Origin: Catenulispora acidiphila DSM 44928
GTDB taxonomy: Bacteria; Actinomycetota; Actinomycetes; Streptomycetales; Catenulisporaceae
NCBI RefSeq assembly: GCF_000024025.1
Contig: NC_013131.1
Coordinates: 1,550,001-1,614,000 of the forward strand
Reading direction: 5' to 3'
DNA: 64,000 bases
In this document: positions 21,288-30,300 of the stretch, piece by piece
Position numbering within the stretch: the first letter of the stretch is position 1
How the letters are laid out: every line of letters begins with the position of its first letter
The notes under the pieces: generated by a model
The model's input: only the letters and a program-made list of their open reading frames with translations
Database searches by the model: none
Told to the model about the DNA's origin: nothing
Program-made: the position numbers and the translations under genes

Positions 21288-22097
21288 ATGACCACCGCCA
21301 CCGTCGTCGCCGCCGGAACCACCGCCGCCGCCCCCAAGCCGTTCAAGACCATCCGCCACAGTGCGGCGCTGGCCAAGCGCAGCCTGATCAAGACCATGCG
21401 CACGCCGGAGGCGCTCCTGGACGTGACGCTCCAGCCGGTGATCTTCCTGCTGCTGTTCACCTATGTCTTCGGCGGTGCGATCGCCGGATCTCAGAGTGTG
21501 TACTTGCAGTACCTGTTGCCGGGCATCCTGGCGCAGACGATTGCGATGAGTGCCACGGCCATCGGCGTGAACATGAACACCGATATCTCCAAGGGTGTGT
21601 TCGACCGCTTCCGATCACTGCCGATCGCCAGGTCGGCTCCGCTGGTCGGCGCGGTGCTCGCCGACTTCGTCCGCTACGCGCTGGTCGCCGTCATCACGCT
21701 GACCGTCGGCTACGCGATGGGCTTCCGGATCCACACCAACCCGCTGGAGGCCGGCGCGGCGCTGCTCGTCTCCGTGGCCTTCGCTTTGGCGCTGAGCTGG
21801 GTGTCGGTGTTCCTCGGGATGCTGGCCCGGACCCCTGGCGCGGTGCAGGGCATGATGATCCTGCTGGTGCTGCCGCTGAGCTTCGGCAGCAACACCTTCG
21901 TGCAGACCAACACCCTGCCGGGCTGGATGCAGGCCTTCGTCAACGTCAACCCGATCACGCACCTGGCCGGCGTCTCCCGCGGCCTGTTCCTGGGCGGGCC
22001 GGTCGCCACCCACATGCTGTGGACGTTCGGCTGGATCGTCGGGCTGACCGCGGTCTTCATGCCGCTGGCGCTGCGGGCCTACGGCCGCAAGGTCTGA
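21288..22097 (+). CDS. ABC-2 type transport permease, DrrB type
   Basis: 269 aa. Six membrane helices expected of ABC-2 permeases; family hallmarks include TMRTPEALLDVTLQPVIFLL, FVFGGAIAGS-like YVFGGAIAGSQSVYLQYLLP, GVFDRFRSLPIARSAPLVGA, and LPLSFGSNTFVQTNTLPGWM. It is the membrane partner of the DrrA-type ATPase at 19764. Its last 19 bp overlap the end of the convergent AfsR-like gene. Drug or lipid export is likely; the substrate is not known. Confidence 0.9.
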   Translation: MTTATVVAAGTTAAAPKPFKTIRHSAALAKRSLIKTMRTPEALLDVTLQPVIFLLLFTYVFGGAIAGSQSVYLQYLLPGILAQTIAMSATAIGVNMNTDISKGVFDRFRSLPIARSAPLVGAVLADFVRYALVAVITLTVGYAMGFRIHTNPLEAGAALLVSVAFALALSWVSVFLGMLARTPGAVQGMMILLVLPLSFGSNTFVQTNTLPGWMQAFVNVNPITHLAGVSRGLFLGGPVATHMLWTFGWIVGLTAVFMPLALRAYGRKV

Positions 22098-25000
22098 ATG
22101 CCGCTCTTCGGGTCGGTCAGGATCTCCTCCGGCAGACCCAGCGTGTGCGCGACGAGAGCTTGGTTCTCGTCGCGCGTCGCGCTTTTTCCGGCCGTATAGC
22201 AGGACTCGTAGTCGGGCTGCCCGGCGAGCTTCTTCACCAGCGCGACGCGTTCGGTGTCGCTGTGGTCGGCCGCGCCGAGCATGCTCTCGGAGGCGCCGAG
22301 CAGCCGCATCGCGAGCTCGGTCTGGCCGACGGCGTGGGCGTAGCGTGCGGCGCCGCCCGCCATCCGCGCCTGGATGGGCATGTCGCGGGCGATCAGGCCG
22401 AAGCAGAAGGCCCGGCCCAGCGCGGCGCGCGCGGCGTCGGTCTGGCCGGAGTCCAGGTACAGGTTCGCCACGCTCGCCTCGCGGAACGCCAGCAGCTGCG
22501 GCGGTCCGTTCCAGCTGTCGATGAACTCCACACTGGCCATGTTCAAGTAATGCCAGGCGCGGTCGGTTTCGCCGGATTGCCGGTGGTGTTCGCTGAGCCC
22601 GAGCATCGCCACGAAGCAGCTCATCTGCGAACCCGAGCGCCGCGCCGACTCCAGGACCTCCTCCAGCAGCGCGCGGGCGGCGTCGGTCTGGCCGAGCCGG
22701 GTGAGCAGTTGGGCCCGGCCGATCTGGATCTGCGCGGCGCTGGTGAAGGCGTTGATCTCCTGGATCAGTTCCAGCGCCTCGGATTGCAGCCGCAGGGCCG
22801 TCTCGTCGTCGCCGTCGGTGACGGCCAGCGAGGCCAGGCCGTTCAGGGCGGCCGACAGACCCCAGCGGTCGCCGAGCTCTTCGAAGACGGCGGAAGCGTG
22901 CTCCAGGTCGGCACGCACCGGCGCGCGGACCCCGGCGTTCTCCGCGGACATGCCGCGCATCAGGTGCAGCATCGCGCCGACCCACGGATCCGGGTGCACG
23001 CCGTACTTCTCGACCGCGGCGTTCAGCTGCTCCCGGTCGTCGCTGAGCATCGGCGCGATGACCGCCGCCAGCGCCAGCAGCGGATGCTCGATCTCGCCCA
23101 GGGCGGCGATCTCCGCGGCGATCTCGCGGGTCATCCGAGGGACCTCCTCCCAGAGGTAGTCCTCCATGACCGAGGTGATGCGCGCCATCACCGAGACGAT
23201 CGCGCGCGCCTCCTTCGGCGAGGGTCCCGGAACCTGCAACGCCAACCGCGTCCAGGACCGGCCCTCCTGGTTCTGGTCGCCGAGCGTCCAGTACCAGGAC
23301 ATCGCGGCGGCCAGGCGGATCGCGGTGTCGGCGTCCTCGTCGGCGGCGGCGAACCGCAGTGCGGCCAAGATGTTGTCGCGCTCGGCGTTGAGGCGCTTGA
23401 GCCACGCCATCTGCTGCGAGCGCCGCAGCTGCGGCTCCGCGGTCTCGGCGAGTTCGAGAAAGAACGCCGCGTGCGCGCGCCTGGTGACGGCCAGCCGGCC
23501 GGTCTCGCTCAAGCGGTCGGCGCCGTACTCGCGCAGCGTCTCCAGCATGCGGAAGCGCGGGTCCTGACCGGGCTCGGTCGGCACCGACTGCAGCAGCGAC
23601 TTGTCCACGAGCGCGGAGAGCAGGTCGAAGGCGGAATCGGCGTCCAAGCCGGGGGTCACCGCGGCGGCGGCCGCGGCGGTGACGCCGCCGGGGAAGACCG
23701 CCAGGCGCTCGGCGAGGTCGCGCTCGTCGTCGGAGAGCAGCTCCCAGCTCCACGCGACGACGGCGCGCAGCGTCTGATGCCGCGGCATGGCAGTGCGGCT
23801 GCCGCCGGTCAGGAGCCGGAACCGGTCGCTGAGCCGGCTGGCGATCTGGTGCAGCGGCAGGGTTCGGAGGCGCGCGGCGGCGAGTTCGATCGCCAGCGGC
23901 AGTCCGTCCAGGCTGCGGCAGATGCGGATCACGTCGGGGAGCGTGTCGGCGTCGACGGCGAAGTCCGGCACGACAGCGGCGGCGCGGTCGGCGAACAGCC
24001 GGACGGCGGGGTAGGCCAGCACGGTGTCGGCGACGGTGTAGGTAGAAGGGTCCGCGGATTCGCTTGCTGGGGCTCGGTTTCTGCCCGCCGAGGCGAGGCT
24101 TCCGGATCCGCCGGACGGTGCGCAGATCACGGCTTCGTCGGTCACGCTGTACGTCCCGCCACCGGTCGTCGGATCGCAGGTCTCGCCGCCGATCCCGTTC
24201 CCAAGCCCGTTCCCGTTCCCGTTCCCGTTCCCGCTCCCGCTCCCGTTTCCGTCCGCCGGAGTCCGGCTCCGGCTGTCCGCCCGGCCCATCGCCGCCAGCC
24301 GGCGCGACTCGCGGGCCCGCGCACCGGCCTCGTCGAAGTCCTCCGCGTCCGGCAATCCCAGCGGCGGCACCGGGAACAGGCTCTCGCCGTCGATGGTCAG
24401 CGGTTCACGGCTGGTGGCCAGGACGCGCAGCCCCGGCGCGTGGCCCAGCAGCGTCTCGGCGAGCCCGGCGGCGGCGCCGACCAGGTGCTCGCAGTTGTCG
24501 AGGATGAGCAGGATCCGCTTCTCGGCCAGCGTCTCGATCAGGTGGCCCTCGGCGCTGCGCAGCAGGGCGGCGGCCGCGGCCGGCGAGCCGTTGCTGCTCA
24601 TCATCCGGCTTTCGCGCGGACCCAGCGCCGACAGCACCGCCTGCGGTACCTCGCCGGGATCAGTGACCGGCGCGAGTTCGGCGAGCCAGGCGCCGTCAGG
24701 GAAGCGTTCCAGGACGCGCTGCGCCGCCTCGCCGGCCAGCCGGGTCTTGCCCGCGCCGCCCGGGCCGACGAGCGTCACCAGGCGGGAGGCGTCCAGCATC
24801 TTGCCGATCCGGGTCACCTCCTCGTCGCGCCCGACGAAGCTGGTCAGGCGGGACTTGAGGTTCGTGCGCGGCGCGTGTTCCAGAGCAGGCGGCGCCAAGG
24901 CGGGGTCGCTGCGCAGCACCGCGAGATGGACTTCGGCCAGGTCCTTGGACGGGTCGATGCCGAGCTGGTCGGCCAGGGCCCGCCGCACTTGTTCGTAGAC

Positions 25001-25639
25001 GGCCAGCGCGTCGGCCTGCCGTCCCACCGCGTACAGGGCTCTGACATGCAGCGCGGCGATGTTCTCGCGCAGCGGGTGTTCGGCGCCGAGCGCCTCGAGT
25101 TCGGCCAGCGCCTCGGCGGCGTGTCCCAGCCGCAGCTCGGCGTCGAGCCGGTCGGTCAGCGCGGCGAGCCGCAGCTCGTCCAGCCGTGCGGCCGGCGCCA
25201 CCGCGAACGCCGCGTCGGCGACGTCGGCCAGGGCCGGACCCCGCCACAGCGCCAGCGCCTCGCGCAGCGTCGCGCGCGCCGCCGAGGGGTCGTCGGCCCG
25301 CAGCGCCTCACGGCCCGAGCGCGACAGCGACTCGAACCGCATCGCGTCCACCGACTCCGGCGCGATCGCCAGCCGGTATCCGCCGGGAGCGGAGGCGAGC
25401 AGCGCGGGATCGCCGAGGACTTTGCGGACACGCGAGATCAGGGACTGCAGCGCGTTCGCGGCGCCTTCCGGAGGCTCGTCGCCCCACAGCGCGTCGACGA
25501 GCGCCGAGACGGTGACCGCGCGCCCGGCGTCCAGCGCGAGCCGGGACATCAGGGTCCGCAGACGCGCGCCGCCGAGGGCCACCGGCGCGCCGTCGACACG
25601 GATCTCCAGCGGGCCCAGGATCGATACGGTCAGCGGCAC
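22079..25639 (-). CDS. AfsR/SARP-type ATPase regulator with a large insertion
   Basis: 1186 aa from GTG at 25639. Order of domains: OmpR-like winged helix (about 1-95, TVSILGPLEIRVDGAPVALG), BTAD helical domain (about 100-245), NB-ARC/STAND ATPase (about 255-640; Walker A GPGGAGKTRLA near 288, Walker B ILLILDNCEHL), then a long TPR-like helical region to the end. Between ATPase segments (VPPLGLPDAEDF and PAVRLFADRA) sits an unusual insertion of roughly 110 residues containing an (Asn-Gly)n run. Regulators of this family activate secondary-metabolite or transport genes. Targets may include the convergent drrAB-like pair or the divergent SDR genes; not shown by sequence. Confidence 0.88.
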   Translation of the reverse strand: MPLTVSILGPLEIRVDGAPVALGGARLRTLMSRLALDAGRAVTVSALVDALWGDEPPEGAANALQSLISRVRKVLGDPALLASAPGGYRLAIAPESVDAMRFESLSRSGREALRADDPSAARATLREALALWRGPALADVADAAFAVAPAARLDELRLAALTDRLDAELRLGHAAEALAELEALGAEHPLRENIAALHVRALYAVGRQADALAVYEQVRRALADQLGIDPSKDLAEVHLAVLRSDPALAPPALEHAPRTNLKSRLTSFVGRDEEVTRIGKMLDASRLVTLVGPGGAGKTRLAGEAAQRVLERFPDGAWLAELAPVTDPGEVPQAVLSALGPRESRMMSSNGSPAAAAALLRSAEGHLIETLAEKRILLILDNCEHLVGAAAGLAETLLGHAPGLRVLATSREPLTIDGESLFPVPPLGLPDAEDFDEAGARARESRRLAAMGRADSRSRTPADGNGSGSGNGNGNGNGLGNGIGGETCDPTTGGGTYSVTDEAVICAPSGGSGSLASAGRNRAPASESADPSTYTVADTVLAYPAVRLFADRAAAVVPDFAVDADTLPDVIRICRSLDGLPLAIELAAARLRTLPLHQIASRLSDRFRLLTGGSRTAMPRHQTLRAVVAWSWELLSDDERDLAERLAVFPGGVTAAAAAAVTPGLDADSAFDLLSALVDKSLLQSVPTEPGQDPRFRMLETLREYGADRLSETGRLAVTRRAHAAFFLELAETAEPQLRRSQQMAWLKRLNAERDNILAALRFAAADEDADTAIRLAAAMSWYWTLGDQNQEGRSWTRLALQVPGPSPKEARAIVSVMARITSVMEDYLWEEVPRMTREIAAEIAALGEIEHPLLALAAVIAPMLSDDREQLNAAVEKYGVHPDPWVGAMLHLMRGMSAENAGVRAPVRADLEHASAVFEELGDRWGLSAALNGLASLAVTDGDDETALRLQSEALELIQEINAFTSAAQIQIGRAQLLTRLGQTDAARALLEEVLESARRSGSQMSCFVAMLGLSEHHRQSGETDRAWHYLNMASVEFIDSWNGPPQLLAFREASVANLYLDSGQTDAARAALGRAFCFGLIARDMPIQARMAGGAARYAHAVGQTELAMRLLGASESMLGAADHSDTERVALVKKLAGQPDYESCYTAGKSATRDENQALVAHTLGLPEEILTDPKSGIQTLRP

Positions 25640-25696
25640 CGTCCCAGTCTGGCATGCGGGCCGCCGCTGGGGCGCCGGCGCGCGCCGGGTTCCCAA

Positions 25697-25712
25697 CCTA
25701 ACACTTGCTTGG
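25697..25712. promoter_or_regulatory. Operator C upstream of the two-SDR operon
   Basis: CCTAACACTTGCTTGG matches operator B at 14 of 16 positions and shares TTGCTTGG with A and B. It lies 12 bp before the GTG of the SDR at 25725, in the 85-bp gap shared with the divergent AfsR-like gene, so it could influence both. Confidence 0.68.
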
Positions 25713-25724
25713 TACGCTCCCGGC

Positions 25725-26495
25725 GTGGCCCTCACCCTCGACCTCACCGGCCGCGTCGCCCTGGTCACCGGCGGCGCCCGGGGCGTGGGGCGGGGCGTCG
25801 TCAGCCGGCTGCTCGCCGCGGGCGCGCTGGTCGTCAGCTGCGGACGCACCGTCCCGGACCCGCCGCTGCCGGACGGCGCCGAGCACCGCACCGCCGACGT
25901 GCGCGACGCCGACCAGGTGCGGGACCTGGTCGAGGGCGTCGTCGCCGACCACGGACACCTGGACCTGGTCGTCAACAACGCCGGCGGCGCGCCCTATGCC
26001 CTGGCCGCCGAGGCGAGCCCGCGCTTCTCGGCGGCGATCGTCGGTCTCAATCTGCTGGCTCCACTGACGGTCGCGCAGGAGGCGAACCGAGTCATGCAGC
26101 GCCAGGAGGGCGGCGGCCACATCATCAACATCTCCAGCGAGAGCGCCCGCCGAGCCAGTCCCGGCACGGCCGCGTACGGCGCCGCCAAAGCCGGGCTGGA
26201 GAATCTGACGCGCACGCTCGCGGTCGAGTGGGCGCCGCGCGTCCGGGTGAACGCGATCACCGTCGGACCGGTGCGTACCGAACAGTCTCACCTGCACTAC
26301 GGCGACGAGGCAGGCCTCGCCGCCGTCGCCCGCACCATCGCTCTGGGCCGGCTCGCCGAGCCGGAGGATGTCGGCGATCTGTGTGTCCTGCTGGCATCGC
26401 CGTTCGCTTCCTACCTCACCGGGACAGCGATACTTCTCGACGGCGGCGGGACCCGCCCGGCGTTTCTCGACGCCGCCAACGCCGAACATCCGTGA
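25725..26495 (+). CDS. Short-chain dehydrogenase, Rv3549c-like (steroid ring pathway)
   Basis: 256 aa from GTG at 25725. NAD(P) motif VTGGARGVGRGV (about 13-24), NNAGG at about 86, catalytic Ser in INISSESARR and YGAAKAG (YxxxK). C-terminal FASYLTGTAILLDGGGTRP is typical. No ribosome site is visible between operator C and the start, so the message may be leaderless. In mycobacteria two SDR genes (Rv3549c, Rv3548c) sit beside echA20-ipdAB under KstR2; here the pair is 7 kb away but carries the same operator. SDR certain; role by analogy. Confidence 0.84.
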   Translation: MALTLDLTGRVALVTGGARGVGRGVVSRLLAAGALVVSCGRTVPDPPLPDGAEHRTADVRDADQVRDLVEGVVADHGHLDLVVNNAGGAPYALAAEASPRFSAAIVGLNLLAPLTVAQEANRVMQRQEGGGHIINISSESARRASPGTAAYGAAKAGLENLTRTLAVEWAPRVRVNAITVGPVRTEQSHLHYGDEAGLAAVARTIALGRLAEPEDVGDLCVLLASPFASYLTGTAILLDGGGTRPAFLDAANAEHP

Positions 26496-28241: not shown

Positions 28242-28396
28242 CGGAGCTCGAGGGCTGATAAAGCTCGCGAGCCGATGTAACCCGTCCCGGCGTCGGCCGG
28301 TGTGTCCAGTGGTGTACTGACCACCGACCGACAGGGGCGGGCATGGAAGGGACGGTCGCCGAACGGCGATTGCGAGCACAAGGCGGGGGATCGGCG

Positions 28397-28903
28397 GTGA
28401 AGGAAGCGCAGGAGGAATCCTTCCGGGAGTTCGTCGAGGGTTCCTGGAGCCGCCTACTGCGCACCGCGTACCTGCTGACCGCGGACCACGGCGCGGCCGA
28501 GGACCTGGTCCAGGTCGCGCTGATGCGCACCTACCGGCACTGGGACCGGATCGAGGCGTACGAGTCGCCGGAGGGCTACGTCCGCCGCGCGATGGTCAAC
28601 GCCAACATCTCGGCCTGGCGCCGCCGAAAGCACGTCGTCCACGTGATGGCCGAGCCGCCGGAGCGGCCCGCCGAATCGGGCGACCATCAGGACGCGTACG
28701 CGGTGCGCGACGAGCTGTGGCGCGCGGTCTGCGCGATGTCGCCGCGCATGCGCACCGTCTTCGTCCTGCGGTATTTCGAGGACCTGACCGAAGCCGAGAC
28801 CGCCGCGGTGATGGGGTGCGCGGTCGGCACCGTGAAGAGCCAGATCGCCCGCGGGCTGACGAAGCTGCGCGGTGAACTGCGGGCCGAGGGGAGTTTGCGA
28901 TGA
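28397..28903 (+). CDS. SigE-family (ECF-type) RNA polymerase sigma factor
   Basis: 168 aa from GTG at 28397 (GGGGGA 7 bases upstream; ATG at 28343 would give 186 aa). Region 2 (EFVEGSWSRLLRTAYLLTAD, then AAEDLVQVALMRTYRHWDRI) and region 4 (FVLRYFEDLTEAETAAVMGC followed by VGTVKSQIARGLTKL) are intact and no other domain is present. This matches the actinobacterial SigE-family sigma factors of about 170 aa. The stop overlaps the start of the PBP-like gene (ATGA), so the two are co-translated. No classical anti-sigma gene is next to it; the PBP-like protein may serve as the signal partner. Confidence 0.9.
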   Translation: MKEAQEESFREFVEGSWSRLLRTAYLLTADHGAAEDLVQVALMRTYRHWDRIEAYESPEGYVRRAMVNANISAWRRRKHVVHVMAEPPERPAESGDHQDAYAVRDELWRAVCAMSPRMRTVFVLRYFEDLTEAETAAVMGCAVGTVKSQIARGLTKLRGELRAEGSLR

Positions 28904-30300
28904 GTGCCGACGAGCGCGAGAACGTCCCCGGCCGCGGCAATCTGGAGAACGACCTCGATAACGACCTGGAGCACAACCTGGAGAACGAGTTCCGGGCGAT
29001 GTTCGCCGAACGCTCGGAGACGGTGCGGCCGGCCACGTCGCCGTACGCGGCCGTGCGGCAGCGCATCGGCGCGGCGCGGCGCCGGCGCCGGATGCGGATC
29101 GGCGGCGCGAGCATGGCGTTCGCGGTGGCGGCGGTCGGGATCGGGGTGTGGGCGACGGTGCCGGACGCGCATCATCGCGCGATCGGTCCGGCGTCGCACG
29201 GCGCGGGGACGCTGACACCCGAGGTCATGTACGCCGGCGGCCGCACCGAGATCCCCGCCGGGCCGCTGCGGGATGCCGCGCTGGCCTGGCTGCGCGCGAA
29301 CTACCACGGCAGCCTGTCCGGCCGCACCGTGGTGACGACGTTCGACGAGAACCTGCAGACGGTGGCCTCGACGAAGGTGGAACCCGGCGACAGCGGCGTG
29401 GCGATCGTCGACTGGCGGAACGGCGAGGTGCTGGCTCTCGGCGGCACCTGGAACCGGCCGCTGCCGATCGCCGACACCATGAAGCCGCTCGTCTTGGCGG
29501 CGGCTTTCACCACCGGTCATTACACCCCCGACTCGACGGTGCCGCTCGACGCCCAGACGCACCCGCTGGTCTGGCCTCCGAATGCGAAGCAGCCTATGAC
29601 GTACATGGGGGCGCACGGAAAGGCCGACTGGCCGCCGGAATCACCCACCGTCCACATCCAGGACGTCGACGTCACGCTGCGCAAGGCTGCCGAGATCGGC
29701 GCCAACGGGCCCTTCGCCCAGCTGGGGCTGGCGCCCGACCTGGGACCGGCCGAGGTCTACGATCTCGCCACGCGGATGGGGATTCCGAGTGGGACGAAGG
29801 ACTTCGTCCCGGTGCCCGCGCTGATCCTGGGGACGGCGGAGGCGACCCCGCTGACGATGGCGACGGTCTACGCGACCCTTGCCGACGGCGGCGTCCGGCA
29901 CGATCCGGTGATGGTCGGTCAGCTGCTCGGCAAGGACGGCCGGGTGGTCTGGACGCCGAGCGCCAAGAGCGAGCAGGTCCTGGCGCCGAGCGCCGCGCAG
30001 GGAGTCACCGACGTGCTGCACTCGGCCCTGACCGACGGCACCACCGGGACCGCGGTCGAGCCTCGGACCAGCGCCGAGGCCGGGACCTGGGCCATGGCCG
30101 GAGCCATGGACGGGGCGAAGGCGGCCTGGTTCGACGGCGCCGACTCGCACTACGTGATATCGGTGGCGGTGTCCAAGACCGACGCGAAGGGGACCCTGCT
30201 CCCGCTCTCCGCCGACGGGCACAACGGTCCCGACGTCGGCAGCCGCCTCGCGGGCCCGATCTGGGCGGGGATGGTGCAGACGCTGCGGAACCAGGGCTGA
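28900..30300 (+). CDS. Membrane protein with catalytically degenerate penicillin-binding (transpeptidase-like) domain
   Basis: 466 aa. An acidic cytoplasmic tail (1-63), one membrane helix (about 64-88) and an extracellular domain (about 105-466) that follows the PBP transpeptidase plan (FDENLQTVASTKVEPGDSGV, VAIVDWRNGEVLALGG, ATVYATLADGGVRHDPVMVG). All three active-site motifs are altered: SxxK reads D192-T-M-K195, SxN reads G267-A-N269, and KTG reads M399-A-G401. It therefore should not form the acyl-enzyme. Co-translated with the sigma factor upstream, so I infer a pseudoenzyme sensor that may bind peptidoglycan or a beta-lactam-like ligand and control the sigma factor. This is a hypothesis. 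Confidence 0.82.
   Translation: MSADERENVPGRGNLENDLDNDLEHNLENEFRAMFAERSETVRPATSPYAAVRQRIGAARRRRRMRIGGASMAFAVAAVGIGVWATVPDAHHRAIGPASHGAGTLTPEVMYAGGRTEIPAGPLRDAALAWLRANYHGSLSGRTVVTTFDENLQTVASTKVEPGDSGVAIVDWRNGEVLALGGTWNRPLPIADTMKPLVLAAAFTTGHYTPDSTVPLDAQTHPLVWPPNAKQPMTYMGAHGKADWPPESPTVHIQDVDVTLRKAAEIGANGPFAQLGLAPDLGPAEVYDLATRMGIPSGTKDFVPVPALILGTAEATPLTMATVYATLADGGVRHDPVMVGQLLGKDGRVVWTPSAKSEQVLAPSAAQGVTDVLHSALTDGTTGTAVEPRTSAEAGTWAMAGAMDGAKAAWFDGADSHYVISVAVSKTDAKGTLLPLSADGHNGPDVGSRLAGPIWAGMVQTLRNQG

Follow-up and report, generated by a model that had tools for sequence, protein, structure and literature searches.

The locus described here raises the question of what a membrane protein carrying the transpeptidase fold of a penicillin-binding protein (PBP), stripped of its catalytic residues, does when its gene overlaps that of an ECF sigma factor. 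The window, that is the whole stretch of 64,000 nucleotides of the Catenulispora acidiphila genome (10.47 Mb, one contig) that was analysed, contains on its forward strand a gene for a SigE-type ECF sigma factor of 186 residues (28343–28903), followed on the same strand by a gene for an anti-sigma-like membrane protein of 466 residues with a pseudo-transpeptidase ectodomain (28900–30300). The sigma factor scores 183.9 bits against NCBIfam TIGR02983, above the curated cut-off of 141.55; the family bears the name of S. coelicolor sigma-E. The partner ATG lies at 28900 and the sigma TGA at 28901–28903, and the 4-bp overlap reported in the preliminary description of this DNA is thus confirmed. Translation of the sigma gene probably begins at ATG 28343, since this codon is kept in all eight loci that hold the region (the window's own included), whereas GTG 28397, the start proposed previously, reads GCG in locus L007 and is probably internal. 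The absence of a second anti-sigma gene, also claimed previously, holds for the adjacent genes, to which the check extended.

The partner comprises a cytoplasmic tail, one membrane helix and an outer transpeptidase domain, an organisation that had been recognised from the sequence and is borne out here. The conserved tail, supported by profile matches described below, spans residues 27–64 (28978–29091) and ends in an Arg run at residues 60–64, the entire stretch ahead of the helix measuring about 66 residues. The single predicted helix, at about residues 67–87 (29098–29160), corresponds to a hydrophobic stretch conserved in orthologs. Alignment, model and fold match assign residues 105–466 (29212–30297) to a catalytically degenerate class A PBP-type transpeptidase fold. 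The partner scores 39.7 bits against Pfam PF00905 (Transpeptidase; cut-off 22.1), the sole match in a Pfam scan to E 1 over the 466 residues, while among NCBIfam models the class A PBP_1a family fits it best, at 85.5 bits, far under that family's cut-off. Of solved structures, E. coli PBP1B is the closest in sequence (E 1.4e-8). Structure prediction, which had been suggested as a check, yielded a PBP transpeptidase fold: the model, computed from 70 sequences, has a mean pLDDT of 84.3 with 295 residues at or above 90, matches E. coli PBP1b with a Z of 38.9 and an rmsd of 2.6 over 330 residues, and has 4r23_B as its best Foldseek match (E 3.4e-20). Its input joined nine Catenulispora copies to 61 class A domains, the nine copies alone giving a pLDDT of 34, and the model leans to the active-enzyme fold because the deeper rows of the alignment are active enzymes. 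Residues 66–92, with the membrane stretch inside, fall below a pLDDT of 50, and the tail is modelled with low to middling confidence as two helices (15–37 and 47–66), the N-terminal class I anti-sigma domain (ASDI) being built of four. Anti-sigma Pfam models did not match the partner, and a PDB sequence search with residues 28–95 returned nothing better than E 2.7.

The loss of all three catalytic motifs, read at first from the window's copy alone, extends to every ortholog sampled. The former SxxK reads D192-T-M-K195 (29473–29484), the former SxN reads G267-A-N269 (29698–29706) and the former KTG reads M399-A-G401 (30094–30102). Orthologs were found in eight of the nine other Catenulispora genomes, the ninth (G006) being 77% complete, and are 46–62% identical to the window's copy; one locus (L009) starts at a contig end, with tail and sigma gene outside its sequence, and the L002 row of alignment A1 lacks its first residues. 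The class A set aligned with the nine copies numbered 61 domains, of which the genus supplied 10 and its order the other 51. At the nucleophile position Asp occupies 9/9 orthologs and Ser 61/61 class A domains, while the Lys of SxxK is kept in both sets (9/9 and 61/61). The Ser of SxN is replaced by Gly in seven copies and Ala in two (Ser in 61/61), the Asn being kept in eight of nine, and the Lys of KTG is replaced by Met in seven and Ala in two (Lys in 61/61). Loss of the three motifs is therefore found in 9/9 orthologs and 0/61 class A domains. The possibility that the motifs are merely shifted was rejected, as the lost residues stand in register with those of the 61 intact domains, and the search for homologs retaining the catalytic Ser ended with Asp in each ortholog. 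By alignment, the ectodomain of the nine sampled Catenulispora copies is a transpeptidase fold without catalytic residues.

The gene arrangement is less singular than had been supposed. The genome carries 44 TIGR02983 sigma factors above the cut-off. Besides the window's own locus, the 44 best-scoring TIGR02983 loci were taken, of which 43 pass the family cut-off and the last falls just short; 40 of these 44 have a short-tail, one-helix partner. The same 4-bp overlap occurs in 20 of these 40 partners, and 38 display at least four Arg/Lys within the eight residues before the helix. Candidate partners were ORFs whose start lies between −35 and +250 nt relative to the sigma stop, selected for GC-rich third positions and for a hydrophobic stretch, which makes the presence of a helix partly a product of the selection. 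Four loci are without a partner: L113 offered no candidate, and L071, L086 and L099 were excluded by eye, L099 also scoring four on the Arg/Lys measure. The window's partner shares gene order, short tail, Arg run and single helix with these actinobacterial TIGR02983 partners but differs from them in its ectodomain, since only 3/40 carry a Pfam-named ectodomain above cut-off (37/40 have none) and no D,D-transpeptidase was detected by Pfam among the 40. The partner layout is common in actinobacteria, and the ectodomain of the pseudo-PBP partner is unusual.

The three named ectodomains are a thioredoxin/DsbA-like domain (L074:1134–1961), a YceG/MltG domain (L077:1104–2372; G000:C1:4683908–4685176) and a YkuD L,D-transpeptidase (L108). 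With the pseudo-PBP included, three of the four recognisable ectodomains have the fold of a peptidoglycan enzyme, dead transpeptidases accounting for two of the three. The thioredoxin/DsbA-like domain retains CPPC, and the protein that carries it may be a redox sensor. The YceG/MltG domain keeps both Glu of an ASIAEGE stretch. A second gene of this genome (2699192–2700223, L137) is 79% identical to L077 over residues 81–423, the tail excluded, which suggests that the ectodomain was copied. Another YceG-type partner (L133; G007:C7:234590–235885) contains one in-frame TAA and carries Gln at a position that is Glu in the other copies compared, and is possibly a broken copy.

The tail was compared across the class with profile A2, which covers the tail, the helix and the beginning of the transpeptidase part. 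Of the 394 genomes searched within the class, A2 matched 56, and 65 of the 67 matches listed were foreign. All 27 foreign matches starting in the tail or helix part were examined. The 18 that include the tail (model start 3–22) invariably follow a sigma gene on the same strand at a distance of 24–207 nt, two of the upstream sigma matches being weak (L161, 53.8 bits; L232, 92.5 bits). In contrast, none of the nine that start in the helix part (model start 26–41) has a sigma gene upstream, L158 and L237 having a sigma-like match further downstream. Matches confined to the transpeptidase part likewise have no upstream sigma gene (0/8, eight of 38 being examined). Because 18/18 tail matches follow a sigma gene and 0/9 helix-only matches do so, the tail is to be read as a sigma-partner tail, and the profile is independent sequence-level evidence that it belongs to sigma partners. 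We infer that the tail binds the sigma factor. The earlier proposal that the sigma factor is controlled through the tail stands as the best reading, since the layout fits SigE-type partners and the tail resembles theirs elsewhere. Membership of TIGR02983 is in itself no proof of control by a partner, because PMC6767563 distinguishes S. coelicolor sigma-E from the sigma factors that make use of an anti-sigma factor.

A second dead transpeptidase, of unrelated fold, occupies the same position in the genus. The sigma partner at L108:1103–1756 (G000:C1:10328445–10329098) has a YkuD ectodomain with Asp at the position of the catalytic Cys, the Cys of SHGC. Partners of this type (L108 and the L115–L122 series) are present in eight of ten genomes of the genus, the window's own included, and not in G002 and G008; two are split matches. 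In the eight Catenulispora loci the Cys position holds Asp four times, Glu twice, His once and Gly once, never Cys, and a sigma gene lies upstream in 8/8. In contrast, four other Catenulispora YkuD proteins keep SHGC and none has a sigma gene upstream. Among the matches listed in the class search, six foreign YkuD proteins were examined whose match extends far into the N-terminal part; five have an intact SHGC and no adjoining sigma gene. The sixth, L241, comes from a different family within the order, lies directly downstream of a sigma gene and has Val at the Cys position. All told, the 18 YkuD proteins looked at divide into nine that are sigma-linked and without the Cys and nine that are unlinked and with it. 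An acid (Asp or Glu) occupies the Cys position in 6/9 of the sigma-linked proteins.

Conservation is unevenly distributed along the partner. The reading frame is open in 9/9 copies, with no stop. Within the ectodomain, conservation over 13 residues peaks at the former SxxK helix, with 9/13 residues invariant against 72/362 overall; A191, D192, M194, K195 and P196 are invariant. The former SxN window retains 3/13 invariant residues and the former KTG window 0/13. In the model, D192 stands at the start of helix 191–204. Median dN/dS, obtained by simple counting on very GC-rich genes and to be read as relative values only, is 0.30 for the sigma gene, 0.25 for the tail (31–63), 0.72 for helix and linker (64–96) and 0.78 for the ectodomain (97–466); on the same relative scale the pseudo-domain stands at about 0.76 and its class A counterpart in these genomes at 0.56. 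The dN of the pseudo-domain is 2.1 times that of the genus class A PBP (median; range 1.03–3.23; 36 genome pairs). Constraint on the ectodomain is thus looser than on the active class A enzyme, and its former SxxK helix is either still functional or structural. The nine pseudo-domains form one clade (support 100/99), which fits a single loss; since the tree has no root and joins long branches, no parent PBP is named from it.

Several characterised systems combine parts of this arrangement. RsgI6 of Clostridium thermocellum, according to PMC4711584, is an anti-sigma-I6 factor whose outer GH10 domain has very low activity and is used for binding. It resembles the partner in being a membrane anti-sigma factor with a feeble enzyme as outer binding module, and differs in belonging to other sigma and anti-sigma families and in joining GH10 to plant polysaccharide, where a peptidoglycan transpeptidase fold is found here. 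The RsgI-type N-terminal domain is given as about 165 residues in the same paper, whereas no such domain was found in the partner by the Pfam scan to E 1 and its pre-helix stretch is far shorter. PbpP of Bacillus thuringiensis, as presented in PMC8092216, is a separate PBP that controls the ECF factor sigma-P through RsiP. There too a penicillin-binding protein governs an ECF sigma factor via an anti-sigma factor, but PbpP is a separate protein with an active-site Ser (S301) and binds beta-lactams, while here the domain is fused to the tail and the Ser is absent. RsiV of Bacillus subtilis is described in PMC5014341 as an anti-sigma factor that is the receptor for lysozyme; it likewise receives a cell-wall-active protein, through another ectodomain and for another sigma factor.

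We consider it probable that the two genes encode a sigma/anti-sigma pair in which the retired transpeptidase acts as a non-covalent cell-wall sensor in the manner of RsgI6, a reading for which the layout, the tail profile, the fold, the motif loss, the YkuD parallel and the RsgI6, RsiV and PbpP precedents argue together. The short cytoplasmic tail would keep the SigE-type sigma factor inactive, and the outer fold would serve as a non-covalent module binding wall material or wall enzymes. Altered binding outside would free the sigma factor, through a change of shape or regulated proteolysis as in RsiV, RsiP and RsgI, with the signal presumably crossing the membrane via the single helix. The preliminary description had inferred a cell-wall or antibiotic sensor; the cell-wall half of that proposal is carried by analogy with these systems, and the antibiotic half fails for a sensor of the covalent beta-lactam kind, the nucleophile being lost in 9/9 orthologs.

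Such a covalent sensor of beta-lactams or peptidoglycan would follow BlaR1/MecR1, and the shared feature, a transpeptidase-like outer domain used as sensor, is genuine in so far as the partner's outer part folds like a penicillin-binding domain. BlaR1, according to PMC8092216, bonds covalently to beta-lactams, and it has a cytoplasmic protease domain; neither trait was found here. The replacement of Ser by Asp and the loss of the KTG Lys, each in all nine copies, together with the lack of a protease domain in the Pfam scan, make this explanation extremely improbable, and it was rejected on sequence. The same low standing belongs to a decaying gene or an annotation artefact. The fast ectodomain, with its dN/dS above that of the class A control, would fit decay, but the frames are open in all copies at the identities given above and the tail and sigma gene are well kept at the low dN/dS values reported, and chance or decay was rejected on these grounds.

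Two explanations that retain the sigma/anti-sigma pair deserve more weight. The ectodomain may sense a protein (an active PBP, a glycosyltransferase partner or a protease) in place of peptidoglycan, a view that overlaps the cell-wall-sensor reading and that we regard as possible though not favoured. RsiV with lysozyme and PbpP with RsiP are precedents for it and the pocket is poorly conserved except at its first motif, but the neighbouring genes scanned with Pfam include no cell-wall gene. Alternatively, the dead domain could be a passive anchor or spacer without ligand, in which Asp merely caps the helix as Ser would. Asp and Ser both cap helices well, D192 heads its helix in the model, the ectodomain outpaces the active class A domain in rate of change and the KTG region is without any invariant residue; the fast ectodomain and the poorly kept KTG and SxN windows would fit a loosely used spacer and count to that extent against a cell-wall sensor. 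Against a spacer stand the nine copies free of stops (L009 as read from its contig end), the invariance of A191, D192, M194, K195 and P196 and the recruitment of a second, unrelated transpeptidase fold to the same kind of partner with its nucleophile lost as well. We hold the spacer to be unlikely and prefer the non-covalent cell-wall sensor.

The dead PBP partner was found only in Catenulispora within the searches made, and rare relatives elsewhere are possible. The class search of 394 genomes and a separate search whose listing took in 50 non-genus genomes revealed none outside the genus among the matches listed; a search of a contig collection returned four dead-PBP-partner loci, all from Catenulispora; and 45 plasmid records matched, none covering 80%. 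Among the literature titles and abstract openings listed, none concerned an anti-sigma factor that carries a dead domain of the PBP or L,D-transpeptidase kind, and a literature search on TIGR02983 gave no match. Anti-sigma factors that sense through a domain derived from an enzyme are a known kind of protein; the variant in which SigE-type partners carry dead transpeptidase ectodomains, of the D,D and the L,D type, appears to be new.

Among 40 other partners of which 37 have no Pfam domain, a recognisable dead cell-wall enzyme as ectodomain points to a concrete class of ligand, and the second dead transpeptidase in the same role, found outside the genus too, suggests a theme. As a tentative generalisation, rather doubtful as it stands, retired D,D- and L,D-transpeptidases may serve as anti-sigma sensor domains whose pocket, with the nucleophile often replaced by an acid, reads the wall without chemistry. 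If so, such pockets might recognise features like the free amino groups of stems that are not cross-linked, and these proteins would be dedicated non-covalent sensors of cross-linking. To our knowledge, the direct measurement of peptidoglycan cross-linking by bacteria is an open question, which a non-covalent sensor with a transpeptidase fold would make testable.

Searches of the own genome with a promoter pattern found no regulon for the sigma factor: the first spacing gave one match and missed the sigma gene's own flank (control 0), and the second gave three matches, one being that flank (control 1). The flank itself, immediately 5' of the sigma gene (28276–28342), contains the block TGTAACCCG and other conserved bases in 8/8 loci and is possibly an autoregulated promoter. 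Elsewhere in the window, the minus strand encodes at 22079–25978 a large regulator with BTAD and NB-ARC domains and a central Gly-Asn/Ser repeat run, a domain make-up of the AfsR/SARP-like kind.
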